From positions 1-56,993 of IMG/VR virus record IMGVR_UViG_3300036846_001227: a DNA stretch of 56,993 bases; one strand, 5' to 3'. Shown here piece after piece: positions 27,821-40,357 of this stretch. The DNA is from a virus. A program made the position numbers and the translations under genes. Below the pieces are notes generated by a model that was not told the DNA's origin, searched no databases, and saw only the letters and a program-made list of their open reading frames with translations. The stretch's first letter is position 1. Each line of letters begins with the position of its first letter.

Positions 27821-30539
27821 CCGGCGACGGAGTAAACCAACCCTCGAACTGCCAGTCTCCGAGCAACTTGTTGCTGGGACGACCCCGCAATGGAGATCCC
27901 TCTTTCAGGTCTTCCTCGACCATCTCACTATCGAGAGCCGGGAGACGGGCACCACCACTCTTGGCAAGCACCTCTGGGGTTCGCAGACCCGCGTCCTCGA
28001 CTTCTTGGCCGCCGGCATGGACGAGGGCATCCGCGACTTCACCATCCTCAAGTCGCGGCAGCTGGGGGAGTGCCTTGACCCCGATACTCGCATCCTGACC
28101 GCCGACCTGCGTTGGGTCGCGATCCGCGACATCAGAGAGGGAGAGGAAGTCGTCGCTGTCGATGAGGAGCCAACAGGTGGAGGACGTGGCCAAGGCCAAA
28201 GGAAGATGCGGCGGGCTACAGTCCAGGCTAAGGTCTACAAGGAACTTGACGCCTACAAGCTACACTTCTCCGATGGGCGTACCATCATTTGCACCGGCAA
28301 GCACCCGTGGCTGGCGAAGCCAACGGCAGGATATAAGCAGCCGACGTGGTGTTCTCTAGAAAGCCCGGCAGGCAATACACGTTTGCGGATCGGCTCACTC
28401 GTCCGTTGGGTAACGGAGCCATGGGGGGCTTCCACCATGGAGGATGGGTGGTTTGGTGGGATGCTTGATGGCGAAGGCTCGTCGCACTGGCCACGCGCCG
28501 GTGGAGGGAACGTAAACGTATCGCAGCGTCGAGGTCCTGTGTGGGACCGCCTGGTCCGCTACGCTGAGCAGGAGGGCTATCACTACAACATCGAGAATGA
28601 TGAACGTCCTCGCCTAACCAAGTACGGTAAGGTCCCTGTACCAAAGCTCGTCTTTTCCCGGGCTAACGAGATCATGCAACTTCTGGGACAGACGAAGCCG
28701 ACGCGCTTCAATACCGACTTCTGGGAAGGCCGGGAGCTTCCAGGCAAGAAGAGCAACATCGGTTACAGCGAGCTGGTTGCGATAGACCGTCTTGGTCGAT
28801 GGCAGGTTGTCGATCTTCAGACAACGATGGGCACCTACATTGCCGAAGGCTTTGTATCGCACAACACCACGATCTGCCTGGCCATCGACCTATTCTGGCT
28901 CTTCCTCTATCCTGGCATCAACGGCTGCATCCTCATCGACGACGAGGGCAACCGCGACAAGATACGGGTGATCCTGCGCCAGTTCGCCAACGGTCTGCCG
29001 CCGAAATGGCGGCATCGGATCGTCGACGACAACAAGACCCTCATGAGCTTCAATGTGGGTGGCAAGCTCTCGATGCTGGACTTCCTCTATGCCGGCACCC
29101 GGCGCTCAACCTTGGGGGCCTCGCGCTCCTATCGCTTTGCCCACATGACCGAGGTCGCCAACTATGGGGACCCGGAGGGCCTGGAGAACTTTATCCAAAC
29201 TCTATCCGAAGGGCACCCCGACCGGCTCTTCATCAAGGAGTCGACCGCCAACCACTTCAATCACTTCTACCATATGTGCGAGCAGGCGAAGGAAGACACC
29301 CACACTCAGCGCTTCTGCTTTGTGGGGTGGTGGTCGCGTGACGATCAGCGCATCGCTTCATCGGACCCTCGCTACAACGAGTACATGGAAGAGCCATGGA
29401 CCGACGAAGAACTCGAACTAAAAGACGAGGTACTCCGATTGTATGATGTCACGGTCGATGACGAGCAACTCTGCTGGTATAGGTGGCGCTCGACGGCCCG
29501 TTCCATCGATGAGGGGATGCTGCACCAGACCCAGCCGTGGACTGAGAGCCAGGCCTTCGTCCTGTCGGGGCGCTCCTTCTTCCCTTTAAGGCGCGTTGAG
29601 GCCGACATCAAGGAGATTTACCAGGCCGCGCCGGCCCAGGACTCGCCCTATGACTTCACGGCCTTTCGGTATTACTTGGGCCAGGACCTCCCCTCCACCA
29701 CTATCGAGGAGGTCCACACCATCGAGGAGGCCGACCTAAAGGTCTGGGAGGACCCCGTCCCCTGGGGAAGATATGTCATAGGGGTTGACCCAGCGTATGG
29801 CCGCAGCGACTGGAACGACTCGCACGCCATCACCGTCTGCCGGTGTTATGCCGACAGGCTGGTGACAGTGGCCGAGTACGGCACTCCCGAACCCGAAACC
29901 TTCCAGGTCACCTGGGCACTCGCTCACCTGGCCGCCCTCTATGATGATTGCTACATCAACATCGAGGTCAAGGGACCCGGCGTCGTCATCATGAACGAGC
30001 TGCGCCGGCTCAAGGTCTGGCTCCAGTCCCAGATGATGGCGACCATTGTCCATGACAAGGACTGGCACAACATCACCGACAACGCCAAATGGTACTTGTG
30101 GCACCGCCCCGACTCCCTCGGCAAGGGTTATGCCTACGGTGTCAACACCACCTATGACCTGAAGATAGCCATAATGAACGAGCTGCGGGACAGCTACATC
30201 AACCATGCCCTGTGGATCAAATCCCTGCGCTGTCTCAAGCAGATGCAGTTTGTGGTACAAGAAGGCGCGGACATCGGGCCGGGTGCCAAGGGCCGCAACC
30301 ACGATGACTACGTCTTCAGTCTCGCCTTTGCTCACCGGGCGTGGCAGGACTGGGTCCGGCAGGACCTGATCGACCTCGGCTACACCTGGCAGCGTGCTCA
30401 GCAGGATGACCTCGACAGGAAGACCGGTCGGCCGCCCAATGTCGTCGCCAGCATCGTGTCCAACTTCTTTGCCAACAAGGAGCGCGACCGCACCGAAGGC
30501 CCACCCGAACAGCAGTGGTACCGGGAGCGCGGCCTGTGA
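27780..30539 (+). CDS. terL: Terminase large subunit interrupted by an intein
   Basis: 919-residue precursor; the mature terminase would be about 654 residues. The ATPase has FTILKSRQLGE, then the intein (residues 98-362), then TTICLAIDLFW. Rejoined, SRQLGETT is a deviant Walker A with the Lys at its start (KSRQ), as in some terminase families. Walker B with catalytic Glu is FAHMTEV (Glu458). The RNase H-fold nuclease has IGVDPAYG (Asp670), INIEVKGPG and KGRNHDDYVFSLAF (Asp842-Asp843). It packages DNA through the portal encoded at 36183. Start ATG 27780 lies within the end of the TerS-like gene. Confidence 0.93.
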   Translation: MEDLTSILPAKRVNRRRSKPTLELPVSEQLVAGTTPQWRSLFQVFLDHLTIESRETGTTTLGKHLWGSQTRVLDFLAAGMDEGIRDFTILKSRQLGECLDPDTRILTADLRWVAIRDIREGEEVVAVDEEPTGGGRGQGQRKMRRATVQAKVYKELDAYKLHFSDGRTIICTGKHPWLAKPTAGYKQPTWCSLESPAGNTRLRIGSLVRWVTEPWGASTMEDGWFGGMLDGEGSSHWPRAGGGNVNVSQRRGPVWDRLVRYAEQEGYHYNIENDERPRLTKYGKVPVPKLVFSRANEIMQLLGQTKPTRFNTDFWEGRELPGKKSNIGYSELVAIDRLGRWQVVDLQTTMGTYIAEGFVSHNTTICLAIDLFWLFLYPGINGCILIDDEGNRDKIRVILRQFANGLPPKWRHRIVDDNKTLMSFNVGGKLSMLDFLYAGTRRSTLGASRSYRFAHMTEVANYGDPEGLENFIQTLSEGHPDRLFIKESTANHFNHFYHMCEQAKEDTHTQRFCFVGWWSRDDQRIASSDPRYNEYMEEPWTDEELELKDEVLRLYDVTVDDEQLCWYRWRSTARSIDEGMLHQTQPWTESQAFVLSGRSFFPLRRVEADIKEIYQAAPAQDSPYDFTAFRYYLGQDLPSTTIEEVHTIEEADLKVWEDPVPWGRYVIGVDPAYGRSDWNDSHAITVCRCYADRLVTVAEYGTPEPETFQVTWALAHLAALYDDCYINIEVKGPGVVIMNELRRLKVWLQSQMMATIVHDKDWHNITDNAKWYLWHRPDSLGKGYAYGVNTTYDLKIAIMNELRDSYINHALWIKSLRCLKQMQFVVQEGADIGPGAKGRNHDDYVFSLAFAHRAWQDWVRQDLIDLGYTWQRAQQDDLDRKTGRPPNVVASIVSNFFANKERDRTEGPPEQQWYRERGL
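28071..28865 (+). other. Intein in terL, 265 residues, with LAGLIDADG-like remnant
   Basis: Residues 98-362 of the precursor. Block A is CLDPDTRILTADLRWVAI (Cys nucleophile at 98); block B is GRTIICTGKHPWLA (Thr172-x2-His175); blocks F and G are VVDLQTTMGTYIAEGFVSHN, ending His361-Asn362 with Thr363 as the first C-extein residue. All splicing residues are present. The middle has one homing-type motif, FGGMLDGEGS (225-234), but the linker is short for a full two-motif endonuclease. It interrupts the ATP-binding loop, so the terminase cannot work until the intein is removed. Confidence 0.93.
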
Positions 30540-32176: not shown

Positions 32177-32521
32177 ATGAGCACACCTGGACCCTACAAC
32201 CTCGTCATCTACCGGGGTGACACCGGCACCTGGGAGTTCGTGTTGTGGGCCGACGCCGCCAAGACGGTGCCCTTTGACCTGAGTGGGGCGACGGCTAAGG
32301 CCGAGATACGCAACCGGCCCGGTGGCGTCTTGCTGGCCACCCTGAGCGTGTCCATCAACCTGCCGCAGACCATCGTAGTCACCTTGAGCGAGGCCGAGAG
32401 CCTGGCTCTCAATGGTGGCGTCTATGCGTGGGACTTGCCGGTGACCATGCCCGGCGGCGGCGTGCAAACCATGATGGCGGGGCCGGTGACAGTGACGGAG
32501 GACGTGACAGGGAGCGCGTGA
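32177..32521 (+). CDS. BppU-like Ig-fold virion protein, 114 residues
   Basis: Pattern [60 protein letters not shown] and [12 protein letters not shown] is the beta-sandwich seen in the N-terminal domain of phage baseplate/fibre upper proteins. Its stop overlaps the start of the collagen-like fibre, which suggests a docking partner. No good Shine-Dalgarno; the upstream sequence is a GCGAGCGTAGCGAGCC element. Confidence 0.65.
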
Positions 32522-33672
32522 TGGCCTTCACCGATGTTGCCGTCGTCGATGTCATTCCGCCGCCGCCCATCGTGGTCGATGTGGTGGTGCCGCCGGGTGT
32601 GCAGGTGGTGGAGGTGATTGCCGGCACCCAGGGGCCGGCGGGGCCGCAGGGTCCCCCTGGCAACAATGGTGCGGTAGGTCCCATCGGTCCACCTGGCACG
32701 CCGGGCACTCCCGGTGGTCCACCTGGGCCAACCGGGCCGCCGGGTCCGACAGGTGCAACCGGAGCCAGTGGTCCCGCCGGCCCGACAGGTGGAACAGGTC
32801 CCGCCGGCCCGACAGGGGCAACGGGGGCGACCGGCGCAACAGGTGCCACCGGGCCAGCGGGGCCTACGGGTCCCACTGGCCCTGGCACTGTCACCAGCAT
32901 CACCGCCGGCACCGGCCTCAGCGGCGGCACCATCACCACCACCGGCACCATCGCCCTGGACGCAACTTATGTTAACGCACACTGGTTGCCGCTGACGGGT
33001 GGCACCCTGAGTGGGCCTGGCAACCTGATCATCGGCGGCACCACCCTGTTCCAGGGATCGCCCTACATCAACGGCCAGATTATCCACCTCTCAGGGGCCG
33101 TCGGCTCCGGCACCGGGAATATCTCTGGCGACGCCAACAACATCCTGGTGCAGTTGCCGACGGGCAACGGCTCGCTGTTCCTGTACAACAGTGCGGGCCA
33201 GAACATGCTGACGCTGGGTGGAGCAACCCAGTCGGCAATCTTTGGCGGGGCGGCAAGCTTTGCCGGCGGCCTCGTCGGCGTCACCACCAACAGCAATGCC
33301 GCCGCCGGCAATGTCGGCGAAGCGATCGCGGCGGTCGCTTCTTCATCGGTCACCTTGCCGGCGTCGACCCAGACCAACGTAACCAGTGTCAGCCTGACGC
33401 CAGGTGACTGGGATGTCGCCGGCGAGATGTGGACTACCGTGGCAGGAGCCGTCGACATCGAGGTCGGCATCAGCACGGTCAGCGCCACGCTCCCCGGGGC
33501 CGTCGCCGTCGGCTCGTCGCGCATCAAAATAACCGCCACCAGCACCAACCCGATCTTGGGTATCGGGCCTACTCGCGTGTCCCTTGCCTCCACCACCACC
33601 GTCTTTCTGGTCGGCTTCAGCAATGTCGCCGGCAGCGCCACCGGCAAGCTGGAAGCCCGCAGGATGCGGTGA
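32521..33672 (+). CDS. Collagen-like fibre or decoration protein, 383 residues
   Basis: ATG 32521 overlaps the previous stop. After a short beta N-terminus ([20 protein letters not shown]) comes a long collagen-type Gly-X-Y region ([20 protein letters not shown], about residues 36-122), which should form a trimeric rod. Then [20 protein letters not shown] and [19 protein letters not shown], typical of phage tail-fibre shafts, and a C-terminal beta-sandwich head ([20 protein letters not shown] to [16 protein letters not shown]). Likely receptor-binding or capsid-surface fibre. Confidence 0.8.
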
Positions 33673-33771
33673 CTAGGCCGCCTCCTCGGGCTCGGGTTCG
33701 CCTTCACCCTCGGAGCCTTCTTCGGCTTCGCCGGGTTCCTCGGGCGGCGGATCGGGTGTAAACATTGTCAT
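33673..33771 (-). CDS. Acidic 32-residue micro-protein on the minus strand
   Basis: ATG 33771 preceded by a strong AAGGAGG. Begins MTMFTPDPPPEEPGEAEEGS and stays acidic and Pro/Glu-rich to EEAA. It fits exactly between two rightward genes: its stop abuts the fibre stop and its start overlaps the next start by two bases. The ribosome site also encodes the next protein's first residues, so chance cannot be ruled out. Confidence 0.4.
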   Translation of the reverse strand: MTMFTPDPPPEEPGEAEEGSEGEGEPEPEEAA

Positions 33772-34834
33772 GGCCTCCTTGCTGGACGACCCCTCCTTAG
33801 AGCTTGGCGGCGCACTCGACAAGGTGTCCCCGCAAACCCCTGTGTCCGGGCGGGTGATCCGGCCCCCAAGGAGTATCCTGGACGTGGTCACCGGGGCCGG
33901 CGAGGCTATCGGCCAAGATGTGGGTGGGATGCTCCAGGGCTTAGCTAACTACATCAAGACCCCGGGCATGGTGGCCAGCGGGGAGATATCCATGGCGGAT
34001 GTGGCCGGCGCGGCCCAAGGCTTCGCGGCCAACACCGCCCTCCTGGGTGCTGGCCTCCCAGCCCCGGCTGGCGCGCTCCGCACCCTGGGAGGGATCAACA
34101 AGGCCGCCGCCCTGGACACCAATGCCTTGAGGACGGCCCAAGCCATGGCCGCCGCCGGTAAGGACCCCTATGCGATCTGGCAGCAGACCGGCTTCTATCG
34201 GGACACCCCAGTCAACTGGCGCTTCGAGATGCCTGATCAAGCTGCCCGTGTCGTCAACCCCGTGGTCGGTGTCAGGCCGGCCAGCGAGGCCTTCGATCAC
34301 CCCGAACTCTTTAGGCAGTATCCACAGCTGGCTGATCTTCCTGTCCGCTTCATGGACCTAGGGGCAGGGAACGCGGGGGTGCTCTACAAAAACGATGCGA
34401 CGAGGCAGCCGGCGTTCATGCAGATCAATTCCATGGACCCGGTGGCGGAGCAGCTGAAGACCTTCCTGCACGAGGGGCAGCACGGCATCCAGATGCTTGA
34501 GGACCTGCCAGGAGGGGCGCAAGTGAGCGACTTCCTGGCCGACGATTACCCGGCCAGGCGGGCTGAGCTTGAGCGAAGGGCCAATGCAGGAGAAGATGTG
34601 ACTAAGCCGTGGACTGAGATGGACAAGGAGTATCTGGAGGCCTGGGAGAAGTATCAGAAGGTGCCCGGCGAAGTAGAGGCGAGGAACGTGGAGGACCGCC
34701 ACGACATGACGGCGGAGATGGCCAAGCAGATCATGCCGAGCGGCGCGCAAGGGGCCAGCATCCCGGCCCCTGTCCAGTGGACCTGGCCTAATATACTGTC
34801 TGCCCTCGCCGGCCTCCAACCGGAGCAGCAGTGA
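33770..34834 (+). CDS. Virion-region protein with HExxH metallopeptidase-like domain
   Basis: 354 residues. The N-terminal third is helical and Gly/Ala-rich (VTGAGEAIGQDVGGMLQGLA), like internal virion proteins. The C-terminal half has KTFLHEGQHGIQMLE (His234-Glu235...His238) and GEVEARNVEDRHDMT (Glu301/Glu303), the zinc-binding pattern of the large-polyvalent-protein-associated peptidase-like domains of phages. A role in processing capsid or host protein is possible. No ribosome site stands out. Confidence 0.65.
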   Translation: MASLLDDPSLELGGALDKVSPQTPVSGRVIRPPRSILDVVTGAGEAIGQDVGGMLQGLANYIKTPGMVASGEISMADVAGAAQGFAANTALLGAGLPAPAGALRTLGGINKAAALDTNALRTAQAMAAAGKDPYAIWQQTGFYRDTPVNWRFEMPDQAARVVNPVVGVRPASEAFDHPELFRQYPQLADLPVRFMDLGAGNAGVLYKNDATRQPAFMQINSMDPVAEQLKTFLHEGQHGIQMLEDLPGGAQVSDFLADDYPARRAELERRANAGEDVTKPWTEMDKEYLEAWEKYQKVPGEVEARNVEDRHDMTAEMAKQIMPSGAQGASIPAPVQWTWPNILSALAGLQPEQQ

Positions 34835-36186
34835 TGGCTGACGACACGGGTAGGGCGCAGCCCGGCCTCAAGCAGGACTCCCCCCAGCTAACCCTGCCTG
34901 ATGTCTACGCGGGGAAGCCTGCGCCGCCGCCGGCCGATTACTCTGCTGACATCTCGCCCTCGCTGCGGTCGGCCTACAAGTCGATGGTCGAGAATGGGGT
35001 GTCGCCGTGGAATGCTCGCGAGGCGCTGTTGCCGCCGCCTGATCAGGTGGTGCGATCGCCGAGTACTTTCACACAAGGGCAGGATCTCGGGTTCTACGGC
35101 CAGCGTGGTCTACCAAGTGTTCCACGACAGACCGGCGACCCGGTGATTGGCGGCCCGCCGCAGTTCGCCCCCTCCATGGGGAACTATGCGACGCCGCCGT
35201 ATATGCTCCCTCACCCTGGGTTCCAGAGAGCGGCAGACCAGCAGCCGGAGCTTGAAGACCAACGGTTCTGGGGGGCGAACCTCCAGCGCAACCGGGCCTT
35301 CCTGAACCCTGGTGCGACGGCTCCTTACAACACGGCCCTGCCGCCCCAGCAGGAAGCCCAGTTTAGGGCCTGGCTGACCGAGAACAAGGTCCCCTTCAAT
35401 CCCGGCCTGCCTGTCTCCGACTATGACATGCGCGGCTACTGGTCAGCATTGCAGGCTGGCGACCCCCACGCCAAGCAGGAGGTTGACCCCAGCGACAACC
35501 GGCCACACTTCCCCGACTACTGGAAGACGCCGCTCTCGGCCACCTTCTCCAACGAGAGTCAGTGGGCCAACCCCGAGGTGGCTCCCAGATGGGAGAACGA
35601 CAACCTCCAGCTGCCCAACGGCCAAGTGTTGTGGGATGACAAGGCGCAGAAGTGGATCGGACCTAACCCGCCATGGAGTGGGCAGCAACCGCAACAACAA
35701 CCGCAGGCCCCGCTGCCACGGATGGGCGGGGTGCCGACGGCCAACTCCCTGCTCCAGCAGATCGGCGATGTCCACCAGATCAGGCCGGAGATACCCCCGC
35801 TGCCGACAGTAAAGCCGTTTGAACCGGACTGGCGAGGGGAACCGTGGAACATGGAGTACCAAAACCCGGCCCGCCGATCGATGCAGCTTCCTACGGGTGT
35901 GATGCCGATGCGCCCGGCCAATGAAGCGCAGTTGCAGGCGGCCCCCCTCCTTCAGCAGGCGGCCCTCCTGCGGATGCTGCTGCCGGGTGGGATGGTGGGG
36001 CCGGGTGGCTACAAGCCGATGCCGGGGACCCAGGACAACCCGCTGTTGCAGGAGGGCGAGGAGGGTGCGGTCGTGGGATCGAGGCCGGTGCCGGGGAGTC
36101 GGGACCGCAATCGGTTCTTCAACCCCAATAGGCCGGCCCCTTATAATGCACCCGGCGTCCCAGACGACCGTAGTCAGGAGACTTGA
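34834..36186 (+). CDS. Structural-region protein, 450 residues
   Basis: ATG 34834 overlaps the previous stop (TGATG); GTG 34831 is an alternative. Pro/Gln-rich, mostly disordered. Residues near 165-250 hold a recurrent phage domain: PYNTALPPQQEAQFRAWLTE, VSDYDMRGYWSAL, and HFPDYWKTPLSATFSNESQW. Further Pro-rich linkers follow. This domain recurs in virion-associated phage proteins; its function is unknown. Confidence 0.65.
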   Translation: MADDTGRAQPGLKQDSPQLTLPDVYAGKPAPPPADYSADISPSLRSAYKSMVENGVSPWNAREALLPPPDQVVRSPSTFTQGQDLGFYGQRGLPSVPRQTGDPVIGGPPQFAPSMGNYATPPYMLPHPGFQRAADQQPELEDQRFWGANLQRNRAFLNPGATAPYNTALPPQQEAQFRAWLTENKVPFNPGLPVSDYDMRGYWSALQAGDPHAKQEVDPSDNRPHFPDYWKTPLSATFSNESQWANPEVAPRWENDNLQLPNGQVLWDDKAQKWIGPNPPWSGQQPQQQPQAPLPRMGGVPTANSLLQQIGDVHQIRPEIPPLPTVKPFEPDWRGEPWNMEYQNPARRSMQLPTGVMPMRPANEAQLQAAPLLQQAALLRMLLPGGMVGPGGYKPMPGTQDNPLLQEGEEGAVVGSRPVPGSRDRNRFFNPNRPAPYNAPGVPDDRSQET

Positions 36187-37892
36187 TGGCGCGAAGAAGT
36201 CAGACACCCAGTCATGCTGCCAACCTTGGCCGGATACCCCGGCGGGATGTCGGGGCGTGGTGCCAGGAGATAATAGCTAAGTGTACGGTGAGCCGAGACG
36301 ACCGAGTCCGCCAGGCGCAGGTCTATCGGAACTTCTATTATACCGGGACGGATGACGGGCAGGGGGCCGTCGACAATGAGATTTACCCGGCGGTGGATCA
36401 TCTGGCCTCGTCGCTCTTCAGCCCCGTCAACCCAAGATTTGTCTTTAGCTTTGACCATAGCGATACGCTGGAGGAGCGGGCCAAGGGACACAAGGCCGCT
36501 GAGCACCTCAGCAAGGAGTTCTCCCGACGGGGCGTCGACAATGCCTTTGCCGCCGCCGTCAACTGGGGCCTCATCGACAGCTCCTGCTTCGTCAAGCTGT
36601 TATGGGGCCGGAAGGGCCTCGACCCCTATGTGATCGCCCAGGGCTTTATGGGTGTCTACTACGAGGGCCTCCAGGGACTGGACCGGCAGGATGCCTTTGT
36701 CCACACCAGCTTCATGACGCTGGGGGCCTTCGAGCGAAGTATCGCCGACCACCCTGAAGAGCGGGCGATCAAGAACTATGTCAGGAGAAGGGCCAGGGCC
36801 GATCCCACCATCATGGGCCAGCAGCACGATGTGAGGACATTGTTGATTGGGGGCACGATCCCGGTCAACCTGACCCCGCCCCAATCGAGTATTCCTGGGG
36901 GCTGGGTCAACTGGGTCAAGGGACCGAGGCCGCAGGTGGACGCTCAGACCCTCACCGAGCTTGTCCAGATCGACGAGCTGTGGGTGATCGACAACGACCG
37001 GGAAGATTATACGACCTTCCAACTGGTCGACGAGCTGGTTATCGAGGGCAAGCTTCAGCGGCGCAACTTGTTGGGCATTAGTGGGCACCAACCTTTTGTG
37101 CAGGTGGTTCCCAACCCTGTGCTCGACTACTTCTGGGGGAGGTCCGAGGCGGCCCAGCTGATGATGGCCCAACAGGCGGTGACGGCCCAGGTCAACGGCA
37201 TCTCGCGGACCATGCGGATGCAGGAGGACCCGCCGATGACCTTCAACGGGATGACCGGCAACATCGACGAGAAGCGCTCCACGCTGATGAAGCCCGGCGG
37301 CCGGCTGGCCGAGAACAACCCCCAGTTCAAGGCGGAGAACATGGCCCCCAAGCTGGCCGAGCAGGCCCTGCCCTTCCTGGGTGATCTAAGGGAGAACTTT
37401 CACCGGCAGAGTGGTTTCGAGGCACCTGTCAGCCGGGGCATGGGCGAGCAGGGCGTGAGAAGCGGCGTGCATGGGGAGACGATGGTGCGGATGGCCAGTC
37501 CAAGGTTGCGGGACCGGGCACTCGACATCGAGAAGACCTACGGCGAGTTGGGCGACCTCGGGTTCCAGATGTTGCAGGACAAGGTGCCCGACATGTTTAC
37601 CGTCCATGTCGAGGGTCAAGCCAAGCCAGTAGAGTTTATCCTGGACCAACTGGCGGATGACTACGATCTGTCGGTAGACAGTCATAGTGCAAGTCCGGCC
37701 TTCTCGGAGGAAGCAAGGTCACTTGCCTTTGACTTGGCGAGGACCAAAGCCATTGATGACAAGGGGCTAATCCGCTTGACACACCCTCCCCAGGAGGACA
37801 CTCTTCTCGCCGACATCGATGAGCGCCGGAAGAAGCAGGCAGAGATGCTTGCATCTCACCCGGAGATGCTGCGGTCCCAGGGTCGCCGTTAG
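36183..37892 (+). CDS. Portal protein
   Basis: 569 residues, start overlapping the previous stop. Podovirus-type portal features: RDDRVRQAQVYRNFYYTGTD, IYPAVDHLASSLFSPVNPRF near the N-terminus, a wing region around VPNPVLDYFWGRSEAAQLMM, then AVTAQVNGISRTMRMQEDPP, and the FHRQSGFEAPVSRGMG segment before a long helical C-terminus. It forms the dodecameric ring at the vertex where the terminase docks. Size and position (before scaffold and capsid) fit. Confidence 0.85.
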   Translation: MMARRSQTPSHAANLGRIPRRDVGAWCQEIIAKCTVSRDDRVRQAQVYRNFYYTGTDDGQGAVDNEIYPAVDHLASSLFSPVNPRFVFSFDHSDTLEERAKGHKAAEHLSKEFSRRGVDNAFAAAVNWGLIDSSCFVKLLWGRKGLDPYVIAQGFMGVYYEGLQGLDRQDAFVHTSFMTLGAFERSIADHPEERAIKNYVRRRARADPTIMGQQHDVRTLLIGGTIPVNLTPPQSSIPGGWVNWVKGPRPQVDAQTLTELVQIDELWVIDNDREDYTTFQLVDELVIEGKLQRRNLLGISGHQPFVQVVPNPVLDYFWGRSEAAQLMMAQQAVTAQVNGISRTMRMQEDPPMTFNGMTGNIDEKRSTLMKPGGRLAENNPQFKAENMAPKLAEQALPFLGDLRENFHRQSGFEAPVSRGMGEQGVRSGVHGETMVRMASPRLRDRALDIEKTYGELGDLGFQMLQDKVPDMFTVHVEGQAKPVEFILDQLADDYDLSVDSHSASPAFSEEARSLAFDLARTKAIDDKGLIRLTHPPQEDTLLADIDERRKKQAEMLASHPEMLRSQGRR

Positions 37893-39346: not shown

Positions 39347-40357
39347 ATGCCACAATTTGGAAGCGGCATAATTCCCTCCGGGCCAGTCGGCCTTGAGCTT
39401 GCTGCAATCACACGTAGAGCATTCATACCCGCTCTAGTTGTCCAGATTTACAAGGCCCACCCGGTCTTGAGCCTGCTGCTGGGGAATGCACAGAGGGCCG
39501 CTGGCGGTGTCTCCTCGGTCACGGTGCCGACGCAAGGCGCGAGCTTTGTCCAGTACAGCTGGGCTGGGTTTGATGGTGCCTTCCCGCAGCCGACGGACCT
39601 TACGGCAGTACAAAACGCTGAATTTAATCTGAAGCTTGGCGTAGTTCCAATACCTTTCCTGGGTATGGAAGCATTAGTGCAGGCAACCGAAGTAGTCATA
39701 CCGAGGTTGAGAGCAGTGATGGCGGATGCCAAAGCAGTGGCAACGCAGTCTATTGCGTCAGCACTCTACCAGAACAACCAGAATGCTCCGCTCCAAGTCG
39801 ACAGTTTCTCACAGGCCTATGATAATGGGGCCAACGTCCCTACCTACGGCGGCATCAACCGGAATGCCAACCCGTTCTGGAAGTCGAACCTGATCGCGGT
39901 GAATACGAATATTTCGACCCGGATTGGCATTGCTTCCAGGATTGCCCAGCTGACCTTCTTGAATGGTGGGGAGGCACCGGACTTTGGGGTGATGAGCTTT
40001 GGCGACTGGACGACTCTCATGCAGGATTTCATGGGAGCGGAACAGTTCCGCACAAGCCCGGGGTCCGTCTACGGGATGGACGACAGCGTCAATGCGGGCT
40101 TCCGGTGTTTGACGGTGTTGAATGTGCCGATCTTTCCTGACCCGTTCTTGCAGCAAGGGACGATGTACCTGTTCAACACCAAGTATATTGCCATGTATAT
40201 TAGCGAGGATGCTCCGTTTCTCTTCTCTGGCTTTGAAAGTACTATACCTAACTTCCAAATCGCAAATATAGGAGTAATGATCGTAGCTTTCAACGTGGTA
40301 TGCACAAAACCATCGACAGGCATGCAGCTCACTGGTATGACAGGAAATGCCTTCTAG
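39347..40357 (+). CDS. Major capsid protein
   Basis: 336 residues, ATG after AGAAGGG. Pattern: GLELAAITRRAFIPALVVQI, FVQYSWAGFDGAFPQPTD, FLGMEALVQATEVVIPRLRA (the long helix), FGVMSFGDWTTLMQDFMG, and FLFSGFESTIPNFQIANIGV, consistent with an HK97-fold capsid of podovirus-like phages. It follows scaffold directly. Base composition is odd: parts of the gene are clearly more AT-rich than neighbours (51 of 120 bases G/C at 40201-40320), suggesting different ancestry or gene conversion. Its stop overlaps the stop of the convergent HNH gene. Confidence 0.85.
   Translation: MPQFGSGIIPSGPVGLELAAITRRAFIPALVVQIYKAHPVLSLLLGNAQRAAGGVSSVTVPTQGASFVQYSWAGFDGAFPQPTDLTAVQNAEFNLKLGVVPIPFLGMEALVQATEVVIPRLRAVMADAKAVATQSIASALYQNNQNAPLQVDSFSQAYDNGANVPTYGGINRNANPFWKSNLIAVNTNISTRIGIASRIAQLTFLNGGEAPDFGVMSFGDWTTLMQDFMGAEQFRTSPGSVYGMDDSVNAGFRCLTVLNVPIFPDPFLQQGTMYLFNTKYIAMYISEDAPFLFSGFESTIPNFQIANIGVMIVAFNVVCTKPSTGMQLTGMTGNAF

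Follow-up and report, generated by a model that had tools for sequence, protein, structure and literature searches.

A predicted class 1 intein with a single LAGLIDADG motif interrupts the ATP-binding loop of a phage terminase large subunit

Introduction

Inteins in or beside the P-loop of mycobacteriophage terminases have already been described, among them one at a GK^T site whose Thr acts as the nucleophile (Kelley et al. 2016, PMC5050341). Five terminase inteins spliced in a reporter in that study, two whose nucleases have a double motif cleaved their empty sites, and a dependence of packaging on splicing was argued for these inteins as it is here (PMC5050341). LAGLIDADG enzymes of the single-domain kind act as homodimers (PMC11270868).

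The intein described here lies, like TerL1-a and TerL1-b of mycobacteriophages, inside the Walker A motif of a phage terminase large subunit (TerL), and shares with TerL1-a a position directly before a nucleophilic Thr (PMC5050341). TerL1-a, compared here by its published description, follows the invariant Lys (GK^T), whereas in the present protein Glu97 precedes ^TT and the Lys comes first in the motif. The tested nucleases of TerL1-b and TerL1-c carry a pair of LAGLIDADG motifs (blocks C and E; PMC5050341), in contrast to the one motif found here. The one-motif layout is shared by a Pham3880-type intein in a terminase-like protein of a cluster C1 mycobacteriophage (LinStu gp250), which is homologous over the full length at 29% identity, but which sits at YLASSPY^SKIG, outside the P-loop. 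Pham3880-g, of the same group, spliced experimentally (PMC5050341), and cluster and position suggest that LinStu gp250 is the assayed Pham3880-g. The best whole-intein profile is that of the Rv2578c-family radical SAM protein intein (NCBIfam NF038136), matched by 57 of 60 family members, although its host, unlike ours, is not a terminase. I-CreI, I-MsoI and I-ShaI also have one LAGLIDADG motif per chain, but they are free proteins from introns or rRNA inserts, whereas here the unit is part of an intein and is presumed to dimerise. No description of single-motif LAGLIDADG inteins as a family, or of the Rv2578c intein, was found in a literature search that covered few subscription journals.

Results

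The precursor gene and its terminase

The window is the whole of a virus contig of 56,993 bases. A search with the intein N-terminal profile TIGR01445 covered its full length and matched once only, at the N-terminal splicing region listed in Table 1. The boundaries, reading frame and splicing residues that the earlier note had proposed for an intein in this DNA were all exact in the 919-aa ORF. The class 1 residues present are Cys98 (Cys1 of the intein), T172-G-K-H175 (T75-G-K-H78), H361-N362 (His264-Asn265) and, as the first residue of the C-extein, T363 (Thr+1). Thr had been named as the C-extein nucleophile, and a Thr at +1 is normal for this site, being found in TerL1-a (PMC5050341), while same-site relatives have Thr or Ser, L036 excepted.

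Table 1. Features of the interrupted terminase gene (positions in the window; residue numbers in the intein rows are those of the intein)
Feature	Position	Strand	Evidence
Precursor ORF, terminase large subunit with in-frame intein, 919 aa	27780..30539	+	PHROG 2, E 4.4e-11
N-extein, 97 aa; C-terminal end FTILKSRQLGE, first part of Walker A/P-loop	27780..28070	+	Runs into the C-extein in L001, L002, L003, L004, L005
Predicted intein, 265 aa, class 1 (Cys1, TGKH, His264-Asn265)	28071..28865	+	TIGR01445; NF038136; empty site in 98% identical orthologues; AlphaFold model
N-terminal splicing region, block A (CLDPDTRILTADL) to block B (GRTIICTGKHPWL)	28071..28307	+	TIGR01445, E 6.6e-10
Predicted single LAGLIDADG homing-endonuclease unit, residues 116-226, helix-strand-strand-helix-strand-strand-helix	28416..28748	+	Model; domain-only fold matches; Pfam LAGLIDADG_3 in the family
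LAGLIDADG motif FGGMLDGEGS, residues 128-137, metal-binding acid E135	28452..28481	+	E135 in 83/83 family members
C-terminal splicing region, blocks F/G: VVDLQTTMGTYIAEGFVSHN	28806..28865	+	G260 and N265 in 83/83; H264 in 75/83
C-extein, 557 aa, from TTICLAI: remaining P-loop, Walker B-type FAHMTE, coupling motif KESTA, nuclease domain (GVDPAYGRSDWND, EVKGPG, NHDD)	28866..30536	+	Alignment of the terminase family

The exteins were identified as a terminase large subunit by PHROG 2, which matched the precursor and, with an E value of 1e-15, the intein-free orthologue; Pfam gave no match on the host terminase. Both the ATPase motifs (Walker A, Walker B, coupling) and the RNase H-like nuclease motifs are present, and the residues invariant in the terminase alignment are K91, E193, E222-S-T-A, D405, E464 and D577-578 in the numbering of L001. 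Walker A in this terminase family has the form K-x-R-Q-x-G-x-T-T, with Lys at the motif start and a variable residue (I, V, M, S or E) preceding TT. The intein splits that residue, Glu97, from the first P-loop Thr (K-S-R-Q-L-G-E^T-T).

Splicing domain and fold

TIGR01445 aligned exactly with residues 98-176, scoring 31.6 bits in the precursor and 33.5 with the intein alone against a curated cut-off of 24.5. NF038136 aligned along all 265 aa of the intein (E 3.3e-12), with a score far below its whole-protein cut-off because the exteins differ. A profile check of the 265 residues, as suggested beforehand, was thus positive with TIGR01445, while the Pfam intein model gave a sub-threshold match only. 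A single-sequence search of the PDB with this intein returned nothing significant; the family profile and the fold did match. An AlphaFold model built from 60 family members had a mean pLDDT of 94.1 and a pTM of 0.90, and its best PDB matches were inteins (PhoVMA, GyrA, DnaB, gp41-1, RecA and PI-SceI), with TMt up to 0.80 for DnaB, gp41-1, GyrA and RecA. Together with the exact empty site described below, these profile and fold matches bear out the identification of the insert as an intein. As far as can be predicted from its residues, the insert is an intact class 1 intein that should be active in splicing.

Intein-free relatives and the empty site

The same terminase without the insert is present in three contigs, L001, L002 and L004, at 98% amino acid and about 89-90% nucleotide identity. 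In all three KSRQLGE|TTICLAI is read uninterrupted, and KSRQLGETTICLAI spans the junction in these and in L003. The orthologues are 654 aa long (919 - 265), the same length as the predicted ligated product. Because orthologues of 98% identity read straight across the junction in 654 aa, a chance explanation of the insert was dismissed. Alignment across residues 97/363, on which the earlier note had set its claim to be judged, is continuous in the intein-free relatives, including the more distant L003 (about 74-76% identical) and L005 (36%). The proposed split of KSRQLGE from TTICLAI in the ATP-binding loop is therefore seen directly against intein-free orthologues, and since the insert severs a Walker A motif that is continuous in them, an intact P-loop is predicted to depend on splicing, as had been claimed. 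A pattern scan found the P-loop uninterrupted in 76 of the 80 best viral-contig relatives of this terminase; the remaining four comprise one with masked residues at the motif and three in which the pattern did not find it. In the closer family as sampled, only this record and L025, whose extein is 35% identical, carry an intein.

The single-motif nuclease unit

Only one LAGLIDADG-like motif, FGGMLDGEGS, had been noticed between the splicing regions, and it was confirmed as the only one. In the model the unit contains helices at 123-135, 156-168 and 198-208 and strands at 136-139, 147-151, 173-177 and 190-195. Folded alone, the nuclease domain reached a pLDDT of 87.5, and its domain-only matches in the PDB (Foldseek) were I-AniI, bI3, I-OnuI, PI-SceI, I-DmoI and also WhiA, with probabilities of about 0.9-1.0 and weak E values of 0.008-0.06. 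Pfam found no match on the nuclease domain of this copy alone, LAGLIDADG_3 matched 30 of 55 family members, and the family profile touched I-MsoI (E 0.0013). Judged from the model, the linker is one complete LAGLIDADG unit and not a broken pair.

E135, Q152 and R212 are all kept in this copy. In the 83 inteins aligned, E135 is conserved throughout (a count partly ascertained by the search pattern), Gln at 152 in 82 and Arg at 212 in 80. Pairwise dN/dS was 0.08-0.16 in the nuclease segment versus 0.03-0.13 in the splicing segment for close pairs with estimable dS, but these values are rough since dS is near saturation. In such pairs the nuclease would, roughly, be about as constrained as the splicing domain, which suggests purifying selection on both.

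The single motif had been taken to mean either a decaying homing function or a dimerising nuclease. Loss of a second motif was ruled out as the cause of the one-motif layout, as the whole family has one motif. Decay is disfavoured and the single-motif dimerising nuclease favoured because the one-motif layout is family-wide, the catalytic-type residues are conserved, purifying selection is indicated and the unit is complete in the model. Since single-domain LAGLIDADG enzymes act as homodimers, the unit probably works as a homodimer too. In a scan of the insertion site for two-fold symmetry over centres -8 to +9, the best centre, +7, exceeded a simple shuffle, a null that ignores codon conservation and relatedness; a convincing symmetric target did not emerge.

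The intein family

A profile search with five inteins added 80 loci from viruses and 18 from bacterial genomes to the phage records found earlier; most of the bacterial loci match in the splicing part only. C1 is conserved in 81 of the 83 inteins, the two without it being truncated contigs, and H78 in all 83; the C-terminal residues are given in Table 1. Each chain has one LAGLIDADG motif except L097, the only one of the 83 sequences with a second; a few members, such as L057, L068 and L074, deviate from the scanned motif pattern but keep the acid in the alignment. Complete members are 241-288 aa long, L097 excepted, and no nuclease-less or degraded member was found among the 80 best family matches. 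The closest relative found for the present intein is only about 56% identical.

The outlier L097 (L097:41-1060), from a planctomycete MAG (Isosphaera sp.), is 340 aa long and has two LAGLIDADG-like motifs; it may be related to the single-motif lineage as a two-unit form. More distant single-motif inteins are L056, L059, L060, L064, L066, L071 and L082. By our own reading of the sequences, the hosts of distant members include metallophosphoesterase-like, HD-type, glycosyltransferase-like and methyltransferase-like proteins, and others are in proteins annotated as portal proteins. In two portal-like hosts, L059 and L060, the intein is at different positions.

One site in distant terminases

An intein lies at the P-loop position K[A/G/S/Y]xQxGx^, or in L036 one residue from it, in 38 loci, this one included; the 37 others are viral or MAG sequences. 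The +1 residue is Thr or Ser at all of them but L036. Maximum-likelihood analysis of 70 inteins placed the distinct P-loop inteins in one clade together with L010 and L037 (support 99/96), and the present intein inside a P-loop subclade of 13 rows (99/99). The inteins are 50-63% identical, while their host terminases are about 21-25% identical or without detectable similarity; between L015 and this record, for instance, the inteins are 56% identical and the exteins have no detectable match. As the inteins at one site are far more alike than their terminases, the comparison points to horizontal spread with site fidelity among distant terminases, as expected of homing.

Related inteins also occur at neighbouring positions. 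At L036:4001-4783 the insertion lies one residue upstream (P-loop KGRQQG^CTTY, +1 residue Cys). The inteins of L010:3001-3855 and L037:124-972 interrupt a different terminase directly before its KGRQVGITT stretch, 8 residues upstream of where the family usually inserts, again with Cys at +1; from their place in the tree this appears to be a site shift inside the P-loop clade. At L052:4001-4768 the host of a related intein clearly belongs to another terminase family (PHROG 675), and the insertion follows a Lys near the motif (VVRK^CTQVGAS).

Discussion

With the anatomy, exact empty site, fold, family-wide conservation and same-site spread between distant terminases all shown, we consider it very probable that an intact class 1 intein is inserted here, equipped with a single-LAGLIDADG homing nuclease, and that it would excise itself from the P-loop and persist as a selfish element. 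Going by the known chemistry of class 1 splicing, Cys98 would attack the bond to Glu97 (N-S acyl shift), the acyl group would move to Thr363, and Asn362 would cyclise with assistance of His361. Ligation of the exteins would then give a terminase of 654 aa, and only at that point would the ATP site be complete. Packaging ATPase activity should require splicing because the precursor has its ATP loop cut in two, and only exact loss of the insert would be tolerated because it interrupts an essential motif. The nuclease unit, probably as a homodimer, would cut the uninterrupted P-loop DNA of co-infecting phages, and repair of the cut would copy the intein in, so that it persists selfishly.

It is also conceivable, if rather unlikely, that splicing is intact and the homing nuclease of this copy is dead, the intein being inherited vertically and kept only through its essential site. 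Such a history would fit the lack of a co-conversion footprint beside the junction: empty-site orthologues show 10-18 differences per 120 nt there versus about 10% overall, and their identity in bins around the junction (86-95%) is no higher than in the rest of the gene. Since the junction DNA is as diverged as the remainder, there is no sign that the intein homed into this lineage recently. The sparse occurrence in the sampled terminase family, with an intein only here and in L025 and 76 of 80 best relatives uninterrupted, and the distance to the nearest intein found (about 56% identity) agree with it as well. A dead nuclease is, however, at odds with the retention of E135, Q152 and R212 in a unit complete in the model, with the purifying selection indicated across the family for the nuclease segment, and with the lack of a degraded or nuclease-less member among the 80 best. 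GC3 is 0.645 in the intein and 0.78-0.81 in the exteins on either side; the intein value is about 2.9 sd lower than that of other gene windows, with 2 of 80 windows equally low, and this contrast is modest. The intein was likely acquired from elsewhere.

The selfish reading also has to be set against a regulatory one, put forward in the earlier note, in which slow, condition-dependent splicing (redox or temperature) would time DNA packaging. A sensor role has been proposed for inteins that sit in ATPase motifs (PMC5050341), and Cys74 adjoins block B, but a cysteine-based redox trap was rejected: the N-extein has no Cys near the junction, Cys94 is private to this copy in the sampled family and Cys74 is found in only 37 of 83 inteins. 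Moreover, the five terminase inteins assayed spliced readily, with ligated product predominant and precursor readily visible only for Pham3880-g (PMC5050341), and the distribution of the family fits a selfish element. A redox or temperature switch is unsupported, and condition-dependent timing of packaging by splicing is very improbable. We give scarcely any credence to a non-splicing insertion, with the terminase working around a large inserted domain or the gene being dead, as the catalytic splicing residues are all conserved, the insertion breaks the ATP loop, the ORF is intact and orthologues of 98% identity lack the insert exactly.

Taken as a self-excising homing element, this intein is a real and fairly ordinary addition to a widespread phage intein lineage with an unusually small nuclease. 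Whether that lineage, little described so far, has an obligately dimeric single-motif nuclease and tracks one codon position, K-x-R-Q-x-G-x^[T/S]-[T/S], across barely alignable terminases, having shifted at least once by 8 residues (L010/L037), is in our estimate about evenly balanced; the tracking would follow from the P-loop itself being the conserved homing target. The broad single-motif lineage may deserve a description of its own. P-loop terminase inteins reach well beyond mycobacteriophages. A natural pair of 98% identical terminases with and without the intein, together with a tree-resolved family at one site, makes homing of single-motif inteins directly testable, lets one ask if the nuclease dimerises while fused to the splicing domain, and bears on how such an element can move between protein families without losing its target. 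For the host phage, the anatomy implies that packaging cannot start before splicing.

Other genes were recognised downstream in the record. A collagen-repeat, tail-fibre-like protein is encoded at 32428-33672 (Pfam Collagen, E 6.5e-11) and a portal-like protein, with SU10_portal just below its cut-off, at 36183-37892; between them, at 33770-34834, is a gene with a large polyvalent protein associated domain (LPD23, E 1.1e-13). The major head protein (PHROG 9953) is encoded at 39347-40357, and GC3 of its gene is as low as that of the intein.
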